Shown: in pieces, positions 20,494 to 23,833 of the stretch
Layout of the letters: every line of letters begins with the position of its first letter
How positions within the stretch are numbered: position 1 is the first letter of the stretch
Assembly (NCBI GenBank): GCA_030148085.1
Contig: JASBUF010000018.1
Coordinates: forward strand, 1 to 34,144
From: Methylophaga sp.
GTDB taxonomy: Bacteria; Pseudomonadota; Gammaproteobacteria; Nitrosococcales; Methylophagaceae
Direction of reading: 5' to 3'
DNA: 34,144 nt
Made by a program: the position numbers and the translations under genes
The notes under the pieces: generated by a model
What the model was told of the DNA's origin: nothing
The model's input: the letters and a program-made list of their open reading frames with translations, nothing else
The model's database searches: none

Positions 20494-20943
20494 TTAGTGA
20501 GCGTGTTTTTTCTTAAACTCCGCCATCTTGGTCTGTAACTGCTCCTGTTGTTCCGGCGTCAGCATATTGAAGACCTCATGATGAAAGCGGGCTTTATCCA
20601 TTGCAGCCTGTTTCTTCATCTTCAGAGAGGCATCCACCAGTTTTTCCAATTCGGCTTCATTGAGGGTTTCTGCCTGAGTCAACTGAGCAATAGCCTGCTT
20701 GTTTTTCCAGTAGTCCGCTTTACCGGCTTTGTGATCATCATGACGCTTTTCCATCATCGCTTTGATCTGTGCTTTCTGAGCATCATCCAGTTCAATGCCT
20801 CTTAAATAGAAAGGCATATCGCCGGCACTTTTATGCTTCATCTGATGGTGATGTTTGCTGTCACATTGTTTCACCTCAGTGTCTACAGGGTTCGCCATAA
20901 CCGCGATGGGAACTAGGCTTAATAACAGTAAAGATTTGTACAT
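20494..20943 (-). CDS. CpxP/Spy-like periplasmic protein
   Basis: This 149-residue protein has a signal peptide (YKSLLLLSLVPIAVMA) and a helical, very Lys-, Gln- and His-rich mature part. Two copies of the weak LTxxQ-type motif of the Spy/CpxP family are visible: ELDDAQKAQIKAMMEKRHDD and MLTPEQQEQLQTKMAEF. Such proteins bind misfolded periplasmic clients or damp the Cpx sensor kinase. A His cluster (KHHHQMKH) after the signal peptide could bind metal. The start at 20943 is set by AAGGAG 7 nt upstream and by the signal peptide; a longer frame to 21093 adds nothing recognisable. Divergent placement from the cpxR-like gene with CpxR-type repeats between mirrors the E. coli cpxP-cpxRA layout. Confidence 0.9.
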   Translation of the reverse strand: MYKSLLLLSLVPIAVMANPVDTEVKQCDSKHHHQMKHKSAGDMPFYLRGIELDDAQKAQIKAMMEKRHDDHKAGKADYWKNKQAIAQLTQAETLNEAELEKLVDASLKMKKQAAMDKARFHHEVFNMLTPEQQEQLQTKMAEFKKKHAH

Positions 20944-21132: not shown

Positions 21133-21819
21133 GTGGCGAAAGTACTAATCATTGATGATGATGTAGAGTTGGCCGAGTTATTCCAGGAATACCTGCAGCA
21201 AGAGCAGTTCAGCGTTGATACCTGTTTTACTGGTATGGAAGGTCTCGATGCCGCCCTGAGTGGGGACTATGACCTGGTGATACTCGACATGATGCTGCCA
21301 GACATCAAAGGCACGGATATCCTGTTAAAAATCCGCCAGCAGAGCCTGATTCCTGTTTTGATGTTCACCGCCAAAGGGGATGATATCGACCGCATTATCG
21401 GGCTCGAATCCGGTGCCGATGATTACGTGCCGAAACCCTGCACACCACGTGAGCTGGTCGCTCGGATCCGGGCTATTCTGCGTCGCACAGAGCTCGTTTC
21501 TGACCGCAATGACAAACATCAACTTACCGTCGGCCCCTTATCCATTCACGCTGAAACCCGCCAGGCCTTCTGGTTTGAAGACGCTCTGGATCTGACCAGC
21601 ACCGAGTTCAACTTGCTGGAAGTTCTCGCCCGTCAGGCCGGTCAGGTTGTCACCAAGCAGGAATTGTCGCAACAGGCACTGGGGCGCCCTCTGGCCCGGT
21701 TCGACCGCAGTATTGACGTTCATATGAGCAGTATTCGGCAAAAACTCGGCAAGCAGGCTGATGGTCACCACTATATTCAGACCATACGTGGTCAGGGCTA
21801 TCAACTGATTAAGGAATAA
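21133..21819 (+). CDS. cpxR: Response regulator, CpxR-like (OmpR family)
   Basis: This 228-residue OmpR/PhoB-type regulator has a receiver domain with the acidic triad Asp8-Asp9-Asp10, phospho-acceptor Asp52 (DLVILDMMLPD), Thr79 and Lys101 (VPKPC). A winged-helix DNA-binding domain occupies about 130-226 (LDLTSTEFNLLEVLARQAGQ; SIDVHMSSIRQKLG; IQTIRGQGYQL). The IDVHMSSIRQKLG and GQGY stretches match CpxR. The GTG start has GAGG 7 nt upstream. It is followed after 2 nt by its kinase gene and preceded by CpxR-type repeats, suggesting autoregulation. The Cpx name rests on sequence feel plus the CpxP-like neighbour and the box, and an independent role in metal or solvent stress remains possible. 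Confidence 0.88.
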   Translation: MAKVLIIDDDVELAELFQEYLQQEQFSVDTCFTGMEGLDAALSGDYDLVILDMMLPDIKGTDILLKIRQQSLIPVLMFTAKGDDIDRIIGLESGADDYVPKPCTPRELVARIRAILRRTELVSDRNDKHQLTVGPLSIHAETRQAFWFEDALDLTSTEFNLLEVLARQAGQVVTKQELSQQALGRPLARFDRSIDVHMSSIRQKLGKQADGHHYIQTIRGQGYQLIKE

Positions 21820-21821
21820 CA

Positions 21822-23162
21822 ATGGGACGTCTGTTCTGGAAATTTTTCTTCTCTTTCTGGCTGACCCTACTGCTAGCGGCACTCAGTGCAGGCTCTTTGG
21901 TCTGGCTTAAACGTGCAGCAGACAATGATGACTTGAGCCAGAACTTAAAATTTATCGATTACCGCGGTATTCCGTATGTGATGGTAGCCACCGATATTGC
22001 AGAACAAAACGGGTTGTCTGATCTGACCGAGTTCCTTATACGTATTAACGCCGATAAGTTGCATCAGGTGCTTGCAGTCGACACTGATGGCCGGGATTTA
22101 TTGGACCGCTATGTTGATCCTCAGGCTCTGCAACAGGCACGTTATTGGCTGGCTGAGGGCAAACAACGTATTGTCAATGAGGTTAATATTGGCGAAAAAA
22201 ACTATCTTCTCTATGCGCCACTGGCAGAACCCGCTCCGGCCACATCATATCGACATAAAAAAGGCCCGCCTTTCCCATTATTCTTAGTGATTACCACGGC
22301 CATTTTAGCCAGTCTGCTGTTCAGTGCCTTACTTGCCTGGTATTTCACCAAGCCTATTCGTAGTCTCAAACAGGCTTTTCAGTCTGTTGCAGGAGGCAAA
22401 CTGGATACCCGTGTCAGCGACAGCATGTCCCGCCGCCATGACGAACTGTCAGAGTTGGGGCAGAACTTTGACTATATGACGGCGCAGATCAGCGCACTGG
22501 TCAATGGGCAACGACATCTACTGCATGATGTGTCTCATGAACTTCGTTCACCGCTGGCTCGTATGCAGGCCGCTATCGGTATAGCTCAGCAACAGCCCGA
22601 CAAGGTCGATACCACACTGAGCAGGCTTGAAAAAGAAGCCGAACGTATGAGTGATCTGGTCGGTGAGTTGCTGTTGCTGTCTCGTATGGAAACGGGCGTC
22701 AATCACAACCAGCCTGCACTGGTCGATATTCATTTATTACTGGATGAAATTGTTGCTGATGCCCGCTTTGAGGCTGAAGCCAAGTCGGTTAGCATCAACT
22801 ACCAGCCTAACGGCGAGATCAGCCTTCATGGGCAACAGGAATTACTGCATCGCGCCATTGAGAACGTGCTTCGTAATGCCATTAAGTTCAGTGAAGCGGG
22901 TGATACGGTCAGTGTAGAAGCCACCCTGGATCCTCTCAGACAGCAATTCCAGATTACCATCTGCGATCAGGGTCCCGGTGTAAGTGATGGTGAGTTGGAA
23001 AAACTGTTCCGTCCTTTTTTCCGGGGACAACAGCAGCGGCGTGATGGCATCGGACTGGGGCTCACTATTGCTCAACGTGCTGTTGCAGCCCATCGCGGTC
23101 ATATTGAGGCTGTAAACCGCCCTCAAGGCGGCCTGTGTATAACGATTACACTGCCTGTCTGA
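21822..23162 (+). CDS. cpxA: Sensor histidine kinase, CpxA-like
   Basis: This is a 446-residue membrane kinase. The first helix is at about 8-29 (FSFWLTLLLAALSAGSLVWL), a periplasmic sensor segment spans about 30-145, and the second helix is near 150-175. HAMP follows at about 175-230, and the dimerisation helix has phospho-acceptor His239 (HDVSHELRSPLARMQ). The ATP-binding domain has an N box (AIENVLRNAIKFS), G1 (DQGPGV), F box (KLFRPFFRGQ) and G2 (GIGLGLTIAQRA). The HDVSHELRSPLAR form is the one found in CpxA. It lies 2 nt after cpxR with AAGGA as ribosome binding site, so they are co-translated. The sensor segment is shorter and different enough that the stimulus cannot be inferred. Confidence 0.9.
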   Translation: MGRLFWKFFFSFWLTLLLAALSAGSLVWLKRAADNDDLSQNLKFIDYRGIPYVMVATDIAEQNGLSDLTEFLIRINADKLHQVLAVDTDGRDLLDRYVDPQALQQARYWLAEGKQRIVNEVNIGEKNYLLYAPLAEPAPATSYRHKKGPPFPLFLVITTAILASLLFSALLAWYFTKPIRSLKQAFQSVAGGKLDTRVSDSMSRRHDELSELGQNFDYMTAQISALVNGQRHLLHDVSHELRSPLARMQAAIGIAQQQPDKVDTTLSRLEKEAERMSDLVGELLLLSRMETGVNHNQPALVDIHLLLDEIVADARFEAEAKSVSINYQPNGEISLHGQQELLHRAIENVLRNAIKFSEAGDTVSVEATLDPLRQQFQITICDQGPGVSDGELEKLFRPFFRGQQQRRDGIGLGLTIAQRAVAAHRGHIEAVNRPQGGLCITITLPV

Positions 23163-23214
23163 GTCCGTCCTGGTGGCATCCTTAACTAAAACAATAAAAA
23201 ATTAAAATTACCCC

Positions 23215-23250
23215 TTGCAAAACTAAATGTAAATCATTACTATTTACATT
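23215..23250 (+). promoter_or_regulatory. Promoter overlapped by a Fur-like inverted repeat
   Basis: TTGCAA (23215-23220) and TACTAT (23238-23243) form a promoter with an exact 17-nt spacer, each matching consensus at four of six positions. AATGTAAAT (23226-23234) and its exact complement ATTTACATT (23242-23250) flank a 7-nt spacer and cover the -10 and start point, the classical position of a repressor. The 19-mer at 23223-23241 matches the E. coli Fur consensus at 12 of 19 positions by my alignment. Another dimeric regulator is possible. Confidence 0.6.
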
Positions 23251-23262
23251 GATGGAGCGAAT

Positions 23263-23304
23263 ATGCGTTGCGACTCAGGCGCATTGACACTCCCTCTCTC
23301 TTAA
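23263..23304 (+). CDS. Possible 13-residue leader peptide inside the candidate sRNA
   Basis: ATG at 23263 follows GGAG (23254-23257) with 5-nt spacing and opens a 13-codon frame, MRCDSGALTLPLS, ending in TAA at 23302-23304, 17 nt before the terminator stem. A start this well placed is notable, but frames of this length are common by chance. If translated, the RNA could be dual-function or an attenuation leader. No codon run typical of amino-acid attenuation is present. Confidence 0.25.
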   Translation: MRCDSGALTLPLS

Positions 23305-23321
23305 ATCTGAAAACCGAGTTT

Positions 23322-23351
23322 GTTGCCAGTCGTCAGACTGGCAACCTTTTT
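23322..23351 (+). terminator. Strong intrinsic terminator upstream of msrB
   Basis: GTTGCCAGTC (23322-23331) pairs perfectly with GACTGGCAAC (23336-23345) around GTCA, followed by C and five T (23347-23351). It is about 160 nt beyond the cpxA stop and 84 nt before msrB, so it ends the intergenic transcript and may also end cpxRA. Confidence 0.88.
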
Positions 23352-23373
23352 CAGCTTCTCCTTCTCGCCTGGG

Positions 23374-23402
23374 CTGACCTTTCGGACAACTTTGCTTACA
23401 AT
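23374..23402 (+). promoter_or_regulatory. Candidate msrB promoter
   Basis: CTGACC (23374-23379, four of six) and TACAAT (23397-23402, five of six) are separated by exactly 17 nt, downstream of the terminator. Transcription would start near 23409, leaving a leader of about 26 nt before the msrB ATG. Confidence 0.5.
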
Positions 23403-23434
23403 ATCGCTGAGCAAACTGGTAATTGTGCAATCCC

Positions 23435-23833
23435 ATGTCTGACAAACTGATTAAATCCGACTCTCAATGGCGAGAGCAGCTAACCGAAGAACAGTTTTTT
23501 ATTACCCGCCAGGCCGGCACCGAACCACCGTTTTCCGGCAGTTACGTTAATAACACCGATGATGGCATCTATCGCTGTATCTGTTGTCAGCAAGCCTTGT
23601 TTAATTCCACATCCAAATTCGATGCAGGCTGCGGCTGGCCCAGCTTTTACTCCCAGATAGATGTCGATGCCGTGACTCATCATGCCGATTACAGCCACGG
23701 CATGGATCGCACCGAAGTTCGCTGTCAGCACTGTGAGGCCCATCTCGGCCATGTGTTTGATGATGGCCCAGCCCCTACCGGTTTACGCTATTGCATTAAT
23801 TCCGTTGCACTCGATTTTGATGCCAAAAACTGA
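23435..23833 (+). CDS. msrB: Peptide-methionine (R)-S-oxide reductase MsrB
   Basis: MsrB reduces the R epimer of methionine sulfoxide in proteins. The 132-residue product matches the cytoplasmic single-domain form. Zinc is held by two CxxC pairs (Cys48/Cys51 and Cys97/Cys100). The catalytic cysteine is Cys120 in GLRYCINSVAL. GCGWPSFY and HLGHVFDDGPAPTG are exact family motifs. Cys66 (AGCGWPSF) could be the resolving cysteine. The ATG at 23435 matches the family N-terminus; a TTG at 23423 is in frame but adds only four residues. No clear ribosome binding site precedes it. The following GIY-YIG gene overlaps its last 14 nt. Confidence 0.96.
   Translation: MSDKLIKSDSQWREQLTEEQFFITRQAGTEPPFSGSYVNNTDDGIYRCICCQQALFNSTSKFDAGCGWPSFYSQIDVDAVTHHADYSHGMDRTEVRCQHCEAHLGHVFDDGPAPTGLRYCINSVALDFDAKN

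Follow-up and report, generated by a model that had tools for sequence, protein, structure and literature searches.

A candidate Fur-controlled small RNA of one Methylophaga clade with complementarity to the sodB leader

Organization and conservation of the small RNA locus

The window, that is, the whole stretch of DNA analysed here, comprises 34,144 nucleotides from Methylophaga sp., in which the spacer between a gene for a CpxA-like sensor histidine kinase (HAMP, HisKA and HATPase_c domains; 21822-23162, + strand) and msrB (SelR domain; 23435-23833, +) harbors a small RNA gene of about 100 nt (23251-23351, +), recognized by its conservation and predicted fold, with the start placed from the –10 hexamer and the end from the terminator. 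Its putative promoter (23215-23243, +) consists of a –35 TTGCAA (23215-23220), a 17-nt spacer and a –10 TACTAT (23238-23243), and the –10 and start point are covered by an operator (23223-23250), in which a degenerate Fur-type box encloses a perfect 9-7-9 inverted repeat (23226-23250) formed by AATGTAAAT (23226-23234) and ATTTACATT (23242-23250). About 70 nt separate this repeat from an intrinsic terminator (23322-23351, +), composed of a 10-bp stem (23322-23345) followed by CTTTTT, and no convincing gene lies between promoter and terminator. Downstream of the terminator, a separate promoter-like site for msrB, CTGACC-17-TACAAT, is located at 23374-23402 (+), and a TACAAT –10-like hexamer is likewise present ahead of msrB at the orthologous loci. 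The promoter, the repeat, the 10-bp terminator, the lack of a substantial gene between them and the candidate msrB promoter had all been claimed in an original prediction made from the nucleotide sequence alone, and each was found where it had been placed, leaving the small RNA unit free-standing.

The small RNA promoter agrees with the consensus at 8 of 12 bases and was therefore missed by the promoter scan, whose threshold was 9/12. The scan returned one promoter-like site versus 1.2 in shuffles, and one terminator-like site versus a mean of 1.0; promoter, repeat and terminator are each within chance in the window when taken alone. What raises the unit above chance is its conservation in relatives, with an almost invariant core. 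Further upstream in the window, a Spy/CpxP-like protein with LTXXQ and metal-resistance domains is encoded at 20494-20943 (–), divergently from the two-component pair (21133-23162, +) to which the kinase belongs, an arrangement known from Cpx systems.

The conservation was evaluated by several searches. A 161-nt DNA query (23200-23360) matched 10 of 24 Methylophaga genomes, its own included, at E 1.4e-15 or better, with values from 1.4e-15 to 2.0e-29 in the nine others. Among 58 relatives, 11 were matched, ten of them within the genus; the eleventh (G031) was set aside, its match being limited to 34 nt of the promoter and Fur-box part. When as many as 3 mismatches were allowed, a core pattern occurred in the same 10/24 genus genomes, at one place per genome, and a pattern scan of one genome per species (84,980 species) returned 7 stretches, all from Methylophaga, including M. 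aminisulfidivorans MP and M. sulfidovorans. A covariance model, with 150 candidates scored per genome in the genus search, recovered the ten at E 2.8e-14 or better and G009 weakly at E 0.012, while nothing further convincing was detected over the family (57 genomes, genus included), a search in which stricter filters lose weak matches. Weak matches of the model other than G009 (L040-L047, L048) were judged to be chance, since they were coding or corresponded to gene-end terminators lacking a Fur box. Additionally, a promoter-plus-core pattern was present in 11 of 63 genomes of the order, namely the ten and G009. The promoter layout is similar in the orthologues and in the G009 variant, with a weak –35 in G015, and msrB follows the small RNA in 10/10 orthologous loci. 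The covariance search suggested in the original prediction found the unit conserved in ten genus genomes, contrary to the lack of conservation of 23250-23351 in relatives that would have spoken against the proposal.

A gene tree of sodB covering 23 genomes, from which G019 is missing because no sodB match was found there, placed the ten genomes together with G002 and G003 in one clade with support 100/99. Absence of the small RNA in these two genomes may be an assembly matter, as msrB starts at contig base 31 in G002 and the msrB locus was not found in G003, where only a longer, 53%-identical MsrB homologue was detected; for this reason, neither was counted as lacking it. Outside the clade, no such small RNA was found in 10 of the 11 tree genomes, and the eleventh, G009, carries a diverged unit located before an ABC-F ATPase gene, with a laminin-G-domain gene on the other side (L039, 1455-1578). 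The identification of the ATPase as EttA was rejected by a domain check. This unit is shorter and displays a Fur box, GATGG...CCATCTCTCTCT and a strong terminator, with GATGG...CCATC in place of GATGGAG...CTCCC, and its predicted fold is strong (z –5.8). Its pairing with the sodB of the same genome was within chance, as 111/300 shuffles were as good.

The RNA of the window folds with a z of –3.8 relative to 200 shuffles. A 5' stem (23251-23296, +) is predicted between GA.GGAG (23251-23257) and CTCC.TC (23290-23296), with a variable apical part between them, and is followed by the putative target-pairing segment CTCTCTTAAATCTGAAAACCGAGTT (23296-23320, +). When the orthologues were aligned, the 5' GGAG, the core CTCCCTCTCTCTTAAATCTGAAAACCGAG and the terminator stood out from a variable middle, with small core changes in G007 and G015, and the predicted folds agree in pairing GGAG with CUCC, leaving an open stretch before the terminator. 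The mean unpaired probability of the pairing segment (core positions 7-31) ranged from 0.73 to 0.78 in the predicted folds of the 10 orthologues. Only 1 of the 17 pairs proposed by RNAalifold changed on both sides, so that covariation adds little. The original prediction had suggested a C/U-rich seed against ribosome-binding sites; comparison supports such a seed, but the predicted pairing segment is longer than the C/U stretch and continues into UUAAAUCUGAAAACCGAGU, and in the predicted fold the CUCC portion is sequestered by the 5' GGAG.

The operator and its proposed link to iron

The Fur consensus is the 19-mer GATAATGATAATCATTATC, and boxes were scored as the number of matches to it, the better strand being taken. 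In 7 of 10 orthologous promoters, a match of 15-17/19 lies over the –10. The box of the window reaches 12/19, a score within chance, since it was attained by 325/1000 base shuffles, and its near relatives G005 and G013 show 13/19 and 11/19, respectively; AAATCATTAYTATTT is kept in the promoters of all three. In sampled stretches of G014, which corresponds to M. aminisulfidivorans, 31 Fur-like sites of at least 15/19 were found, four of which lie 8-34 bases ahead of ECF sigma-factor genes and one ahead of a TonB-receptor gene, and in those of G013 there were 15, one of which (17/19) precedes a TonB-receptor gene. The ECF sigma and TonB-receptor proteins were confirmed by their domains, one of the sigma factors being nearest to FecI-type models, and the other Fur-like sites in both samples were mostly inside genes or before unrelated ones. 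A motif search over about a third of two genomes revealed no fur gene. An Hfq protein over the NCBIfam cut-off is encoded in M. aminisulfidivorans (L212), which is consistent with an Hfq-assisted RNA.

These findings suggested that Fur control is well supported for the clade and is extended by inference to the window species, because the orthologous boxes reach 15-17/19 and the same consensus precedes TonB-receptor and ECF sigma-factor genes. Of the Fur-repressed, iron-regulated small RNA that had been anticipated, the unit and its putative link to iron are supported by comparison, while the box of the window itself is degenerate.

Predicted pairing with sodB and other candidate targets

Superoxide dismutase was chosen beforehand as a target, since RyhB and PrrF act on it. 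The sodB gene was present in 11/11 genomes first searched and in 12/13 of the others. In 10/10 genomes bearing the small RNA, the leader has ACTCGGTT some 35 nt ahead of sodB and then a stretch that ends in TTAGGAGA or a similar sequence, and the nearly invariant core is complementary to the 5'UTR from ACUCGGUU through the Shine-Dalgarno sequence; in the genome of the window, this complementarity amounts to 22 pairs with a 4-nt bulge and covers the Shine-Dalgarno. The duplex of the consensus core with the 11 sodB copies of these 10 genomes had energies from –19.9 to –24.6 kcal/mol, and for each copy 0/500 core shuffles and at most 1/500 leader shuffles were as good. The variant cores of G007 and G015 paired more weakly with their own leaders (–17.9, 3/500 shuffles as good, and –21.0, 4/500, respectively). 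In an alignment of eight leaders, i.e., those of the 10 genomes minus the near-copies G007 and G023, 19 of 36 columns were invariant in the part reaching from the site to the start codon, versus 18 of 81 upstream. The target prediction against iron-protein mRNAs recommended along with the original prediction thus returned sodB as the best target. In G022, a single contig, sodB is found at two places with identical leaders (L140, C1:10010, and L147, C1:3063171), possibly a duplication or an assembly end overlap.

The pairing largely follows the phylogeny. Among 11 sodB-bearing genomes without the small RNA, 7 showed no such pairing: these sister genomes carry ACGTTGGTT in the sodB leader, and their duplexes (–11.0 to –12.5, z about 0) were no better than those of shuffles. 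These genomes would be expected to have a partner RNA whose seed has changed. At the same place, the sodB leaders of these genomes (G018, G021, G006, G017, G001, G020 and G016; L152-L158) display TTTACGTTGGTTATTTTCAATCAAGGAG or nearly so. Two others, G010 (–21.4) and G011 (–17.6), keep the site, retaining ACTCGGTT before sodB (L148, L149), with no copy of the small RNA found, and may possess a diverged or moved partner. The duplexes of G008 (–16.9, 23/500) and G009 (–15.8, 52/500) were weak, and those of G002 (–23.5) and G003 (–24.2) fit the clade membership of these genomes. A diverged RNA was also sought in 12 genomes with a pattern placing AACCRAS behind a Fur-like half site, and the matches were all either coding or unconvincing.

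The specificity of this pairing was evaluated against other leaders. Ranked by core duplex energy, sodB was seventh of 763 leaders in G014 and third of 391 in G013 in a first sample (762 and 390 leaders, respectively), and fifteenth of 1187 and fourth of 851 in a larger one, to which the sodB and msrB loci had been added on purpose. Summing the energies over 270 G014/G013 orthologue pairs placed sodB first and rpe second, and no known iron proteins were recognized on inspection at places 3 to 7. When the whole RNA body was used with no accessibility term, sodB ranked only 115/762 in G014 and 251/390 in G013; with accessibility included, only the 80 raw-best leaders were scored, and 9 and 7 of them, respectively, matched or beat it. 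The whole-body duplex allowed unlimited loops and was replaced by the exposed core, both results being reported here. Genes were first named by protein motifs and later checked against NCBIfam, where rpe, bfr, ccoG and hfq pass the cut-offs.

The rpe gene is the likely second target after sodB as judged from complementarity. A TTTAAGAGAGA-like sequence lies over its Shine-Dalgarno, and pairing was observed in 3/3 of the genomes bearing the small RNA in which rpe was found, namely G014 (–20.7, 0/200 shuffles as good), G013 (–18.2, 3/200) and G005 (–21.1, 0/200), while in G016, which lacks the small RNA, it was weak (–15.1, 33/200). Rpe is described as a mononuclear Fe(II) enzyme in PMC8115020. 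A siroheme-type reductase and bfr are possible, weaker candidates by the same approach. The reductase gene belongs to the nitrite/sulfite reductase family, ranked eighth of the 270 pairs and paired unevenly over six genomes (–13.3 to –20.6, 4 to 68/200); the name cysI was rejected, as the protein falls below the CysI cut-off. One bfr gene paired moderately in G013 and G003 (12 to 20/200 over repeated runs), and a second bfr paralogue did not pair (199-200/200 shuffles as good). The G013 bfr leader (L104, L233) contains a Fur-box-like ACGATAATCATC, and its AGGAGAGAGG Shine-Dalgarno is compatible with pairing to the RNA core. Two further genes were dropped: ccoG, strongly paired in M. aminisulfidivorans (–22.9, 0/200), because one G013 homologue was unpaired (–7.7, 196/200) and the other only partly aligned, and a b-type cytochrome gene, because pairing occurred in one genome only (12/200).

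Alternative explanations, proposed mechanism and known counterparts

One objection, that a promoter, a palindrome and a hairpin came together by chance in an AT-rich spacer, draws on the near-chance frequency of each element in the window and is refuted by the conservation in nine other genomes at the E values given above and by the clade-wide presence of the unit, leaving it practically no probability. A small protein gene overlapping the unit is also highly improbable. A 60-aa open reading frame with a TTG start does exist (23268-23450), and some relatives have an ATG behind the start point whose frame runs open through the core; but this ATG is missing in 3/10 orthologues (GAAGGAG/GAAGGAA), the corresponding frame of the window reaches a stop after 11 codons, and, in contrast to coding sequence, the core barely changes even at third positions, which makes translation unlikely. 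The hairpin could instead be a conditional terminator within an msrB leader, as suggested by the constant presence of msrB downstream and by the regulation of msrB by RyhB in E. coli (PMC3650055). However, beyond the terminator msrB has a promoter-like site to itself, its leader shows no pairing with the core (–6.6 kcal/mol, 277/300 shuffled cores as good in the window, the only case considered), the G009 variant sits elsewhere, and the 11 msrB upstream regions of genomes lacking the small RNA are devoid of the unit, so that such an attenuator is very unlikely.

Somewhat more room, though still little, is left for a genuine small RNA that escapes iron control in the window species, its degenerate operator being recognized weakly by Fur or by a different regulator (Zur, MntR-like or Cpx) and its pairing with sodB serving general oxidative or metal balance. 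The low box scores of the window, G013 and G005 agree with this, given that a TonB-receptor gene of G013 keeps 17/19; the Cpx-like two-component pair next door is also in its favor. On the other hand, these three promoters share AAATCATTAYTATTT, the box is well matched in 7/10 orthologues, and the best target encodes an iron enzyme. The locus is therefore best read as encoding a Fur-repressed, stand-alone, trans-acting small RNA of one Methylophaga clade that, like RyhB, would silence sodB and spare iron, with a probability of roughly 0.8.

In the mechanism proposed for this Fur-repressed RNA, Fe-Fur would occupy the box over the –10 and block transcription when iron is plentiful, and under iron shortage an RNA of about 100 nt would be made and end at its own terminator. 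The exposed segment CUCUCUUAAAUCUGAAAACCGAGUU, probably delivered by Hfq, would then pair with the sodB 5'UTR as described above, blocking ribosome entry and lowering Fe-superoxide dismutase, and its C/U part might pair likewise with the Shine-Dalgarno regions of other iron users, sparing iron. If this holds, the RyhB solution would have been invented independently once more, sodB again being the target, and the genus offers a natural test, given that the small RNA and the full sodB site occur together clade-wide, seven sister genomes are without both and two have the site alone. A more speculative and rather doubtful extension holds that the core was shaped by the sodB 5'UTR, that rpe silencing ties methanol use to iron, and that the sister clade, with ACGTTGGTT and not ACTCGGTT, has its own co-changed partner RNA. 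Under this extension, the Fe(II) epimerase would be needed to regenerate the formaldehyde acceptor, and iron supply could throttle methanol use; such a target in central carbon metabolism would link methanol use to iron supply.

The RyhB, PrrF and NrrF types of families are represented in Rfam. No Rfam covariance model matched the window at gathering, and at E up to 10 only two chance animal or viral families appeared within 23150-23430; membership in RyhB, PrrF or another Rfam family was thus rejected. In the available portions of the literature on Methylophaga small RNAs, Fur and iron limitation, no report of this RNA was found, and a methylotroph iron-sparing RNA was absent among the matches listed in the literature on Fur, iron starvation and RyhB. 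The RNA is most likely a functional analogue of RyhB, PrrF and BrrF with an independent sequence, and independent iron-sparing RNAs are already established, according to the accounts of BrrF and IsrR in PMC7377471 and PMC9410917.

RyhB is about 100 nt long, ends at an intrinsic terminator and targets sodB near the ribosome-binding site. In enterobacteria and Vibrio, it also resembles the Methylophaga RNA in having a Fur box at its promoter and in base-pairing to the mRNAs it targets, as described in PMC4144887, whereas msrB, its E. coli target mentioned above (PMC3650055), adjoins the gene here and yet does not pair. PrrF of Pseudomonas is likewise Fur-regulated, and PMC7377471 attributes to it the effect of iron on SOD, bacterioferritin and TCA genes, but it is described as a tandem pair (PMC7948967), versus one core match per genome here. 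BrrF of Burkholderia is similarly lineage-specific, lacks sequence similarity to other Fur-regulated RNAs according to PMC7377471, and has sodB as a predicted and regulated target; it adjoins hemP and was found in Burkholderiales only, whereas the Methylophaga RNA lies beside msrB and was found in one clade only. FsrA of Bacillus and IsrR of Staphylococcus resemble it in their C-rich segments, independent origins and shared targets, and FsrA in pairing with Shine-Dalgarno sequences, as stated in PMC9410917. However, both belong to Gram-positive bacteria with other chaperone needs, and the main predicted pairing of the Methylophaga RNA involves 25 nt reaching well past the C-rich part. HrrF, of about 97 nt, with Fur boxes at the promoter and intrinsic terminators (PMC4144887), and the Fur-controlled NrrF (PMC5586341) share its general layout or regulation, but are unrelated in sequence as far as Rfam shows, and the targets reported for them differ, being mod, asn and nrdB for HrrF and sdhCDAB and petABC for NrrF.
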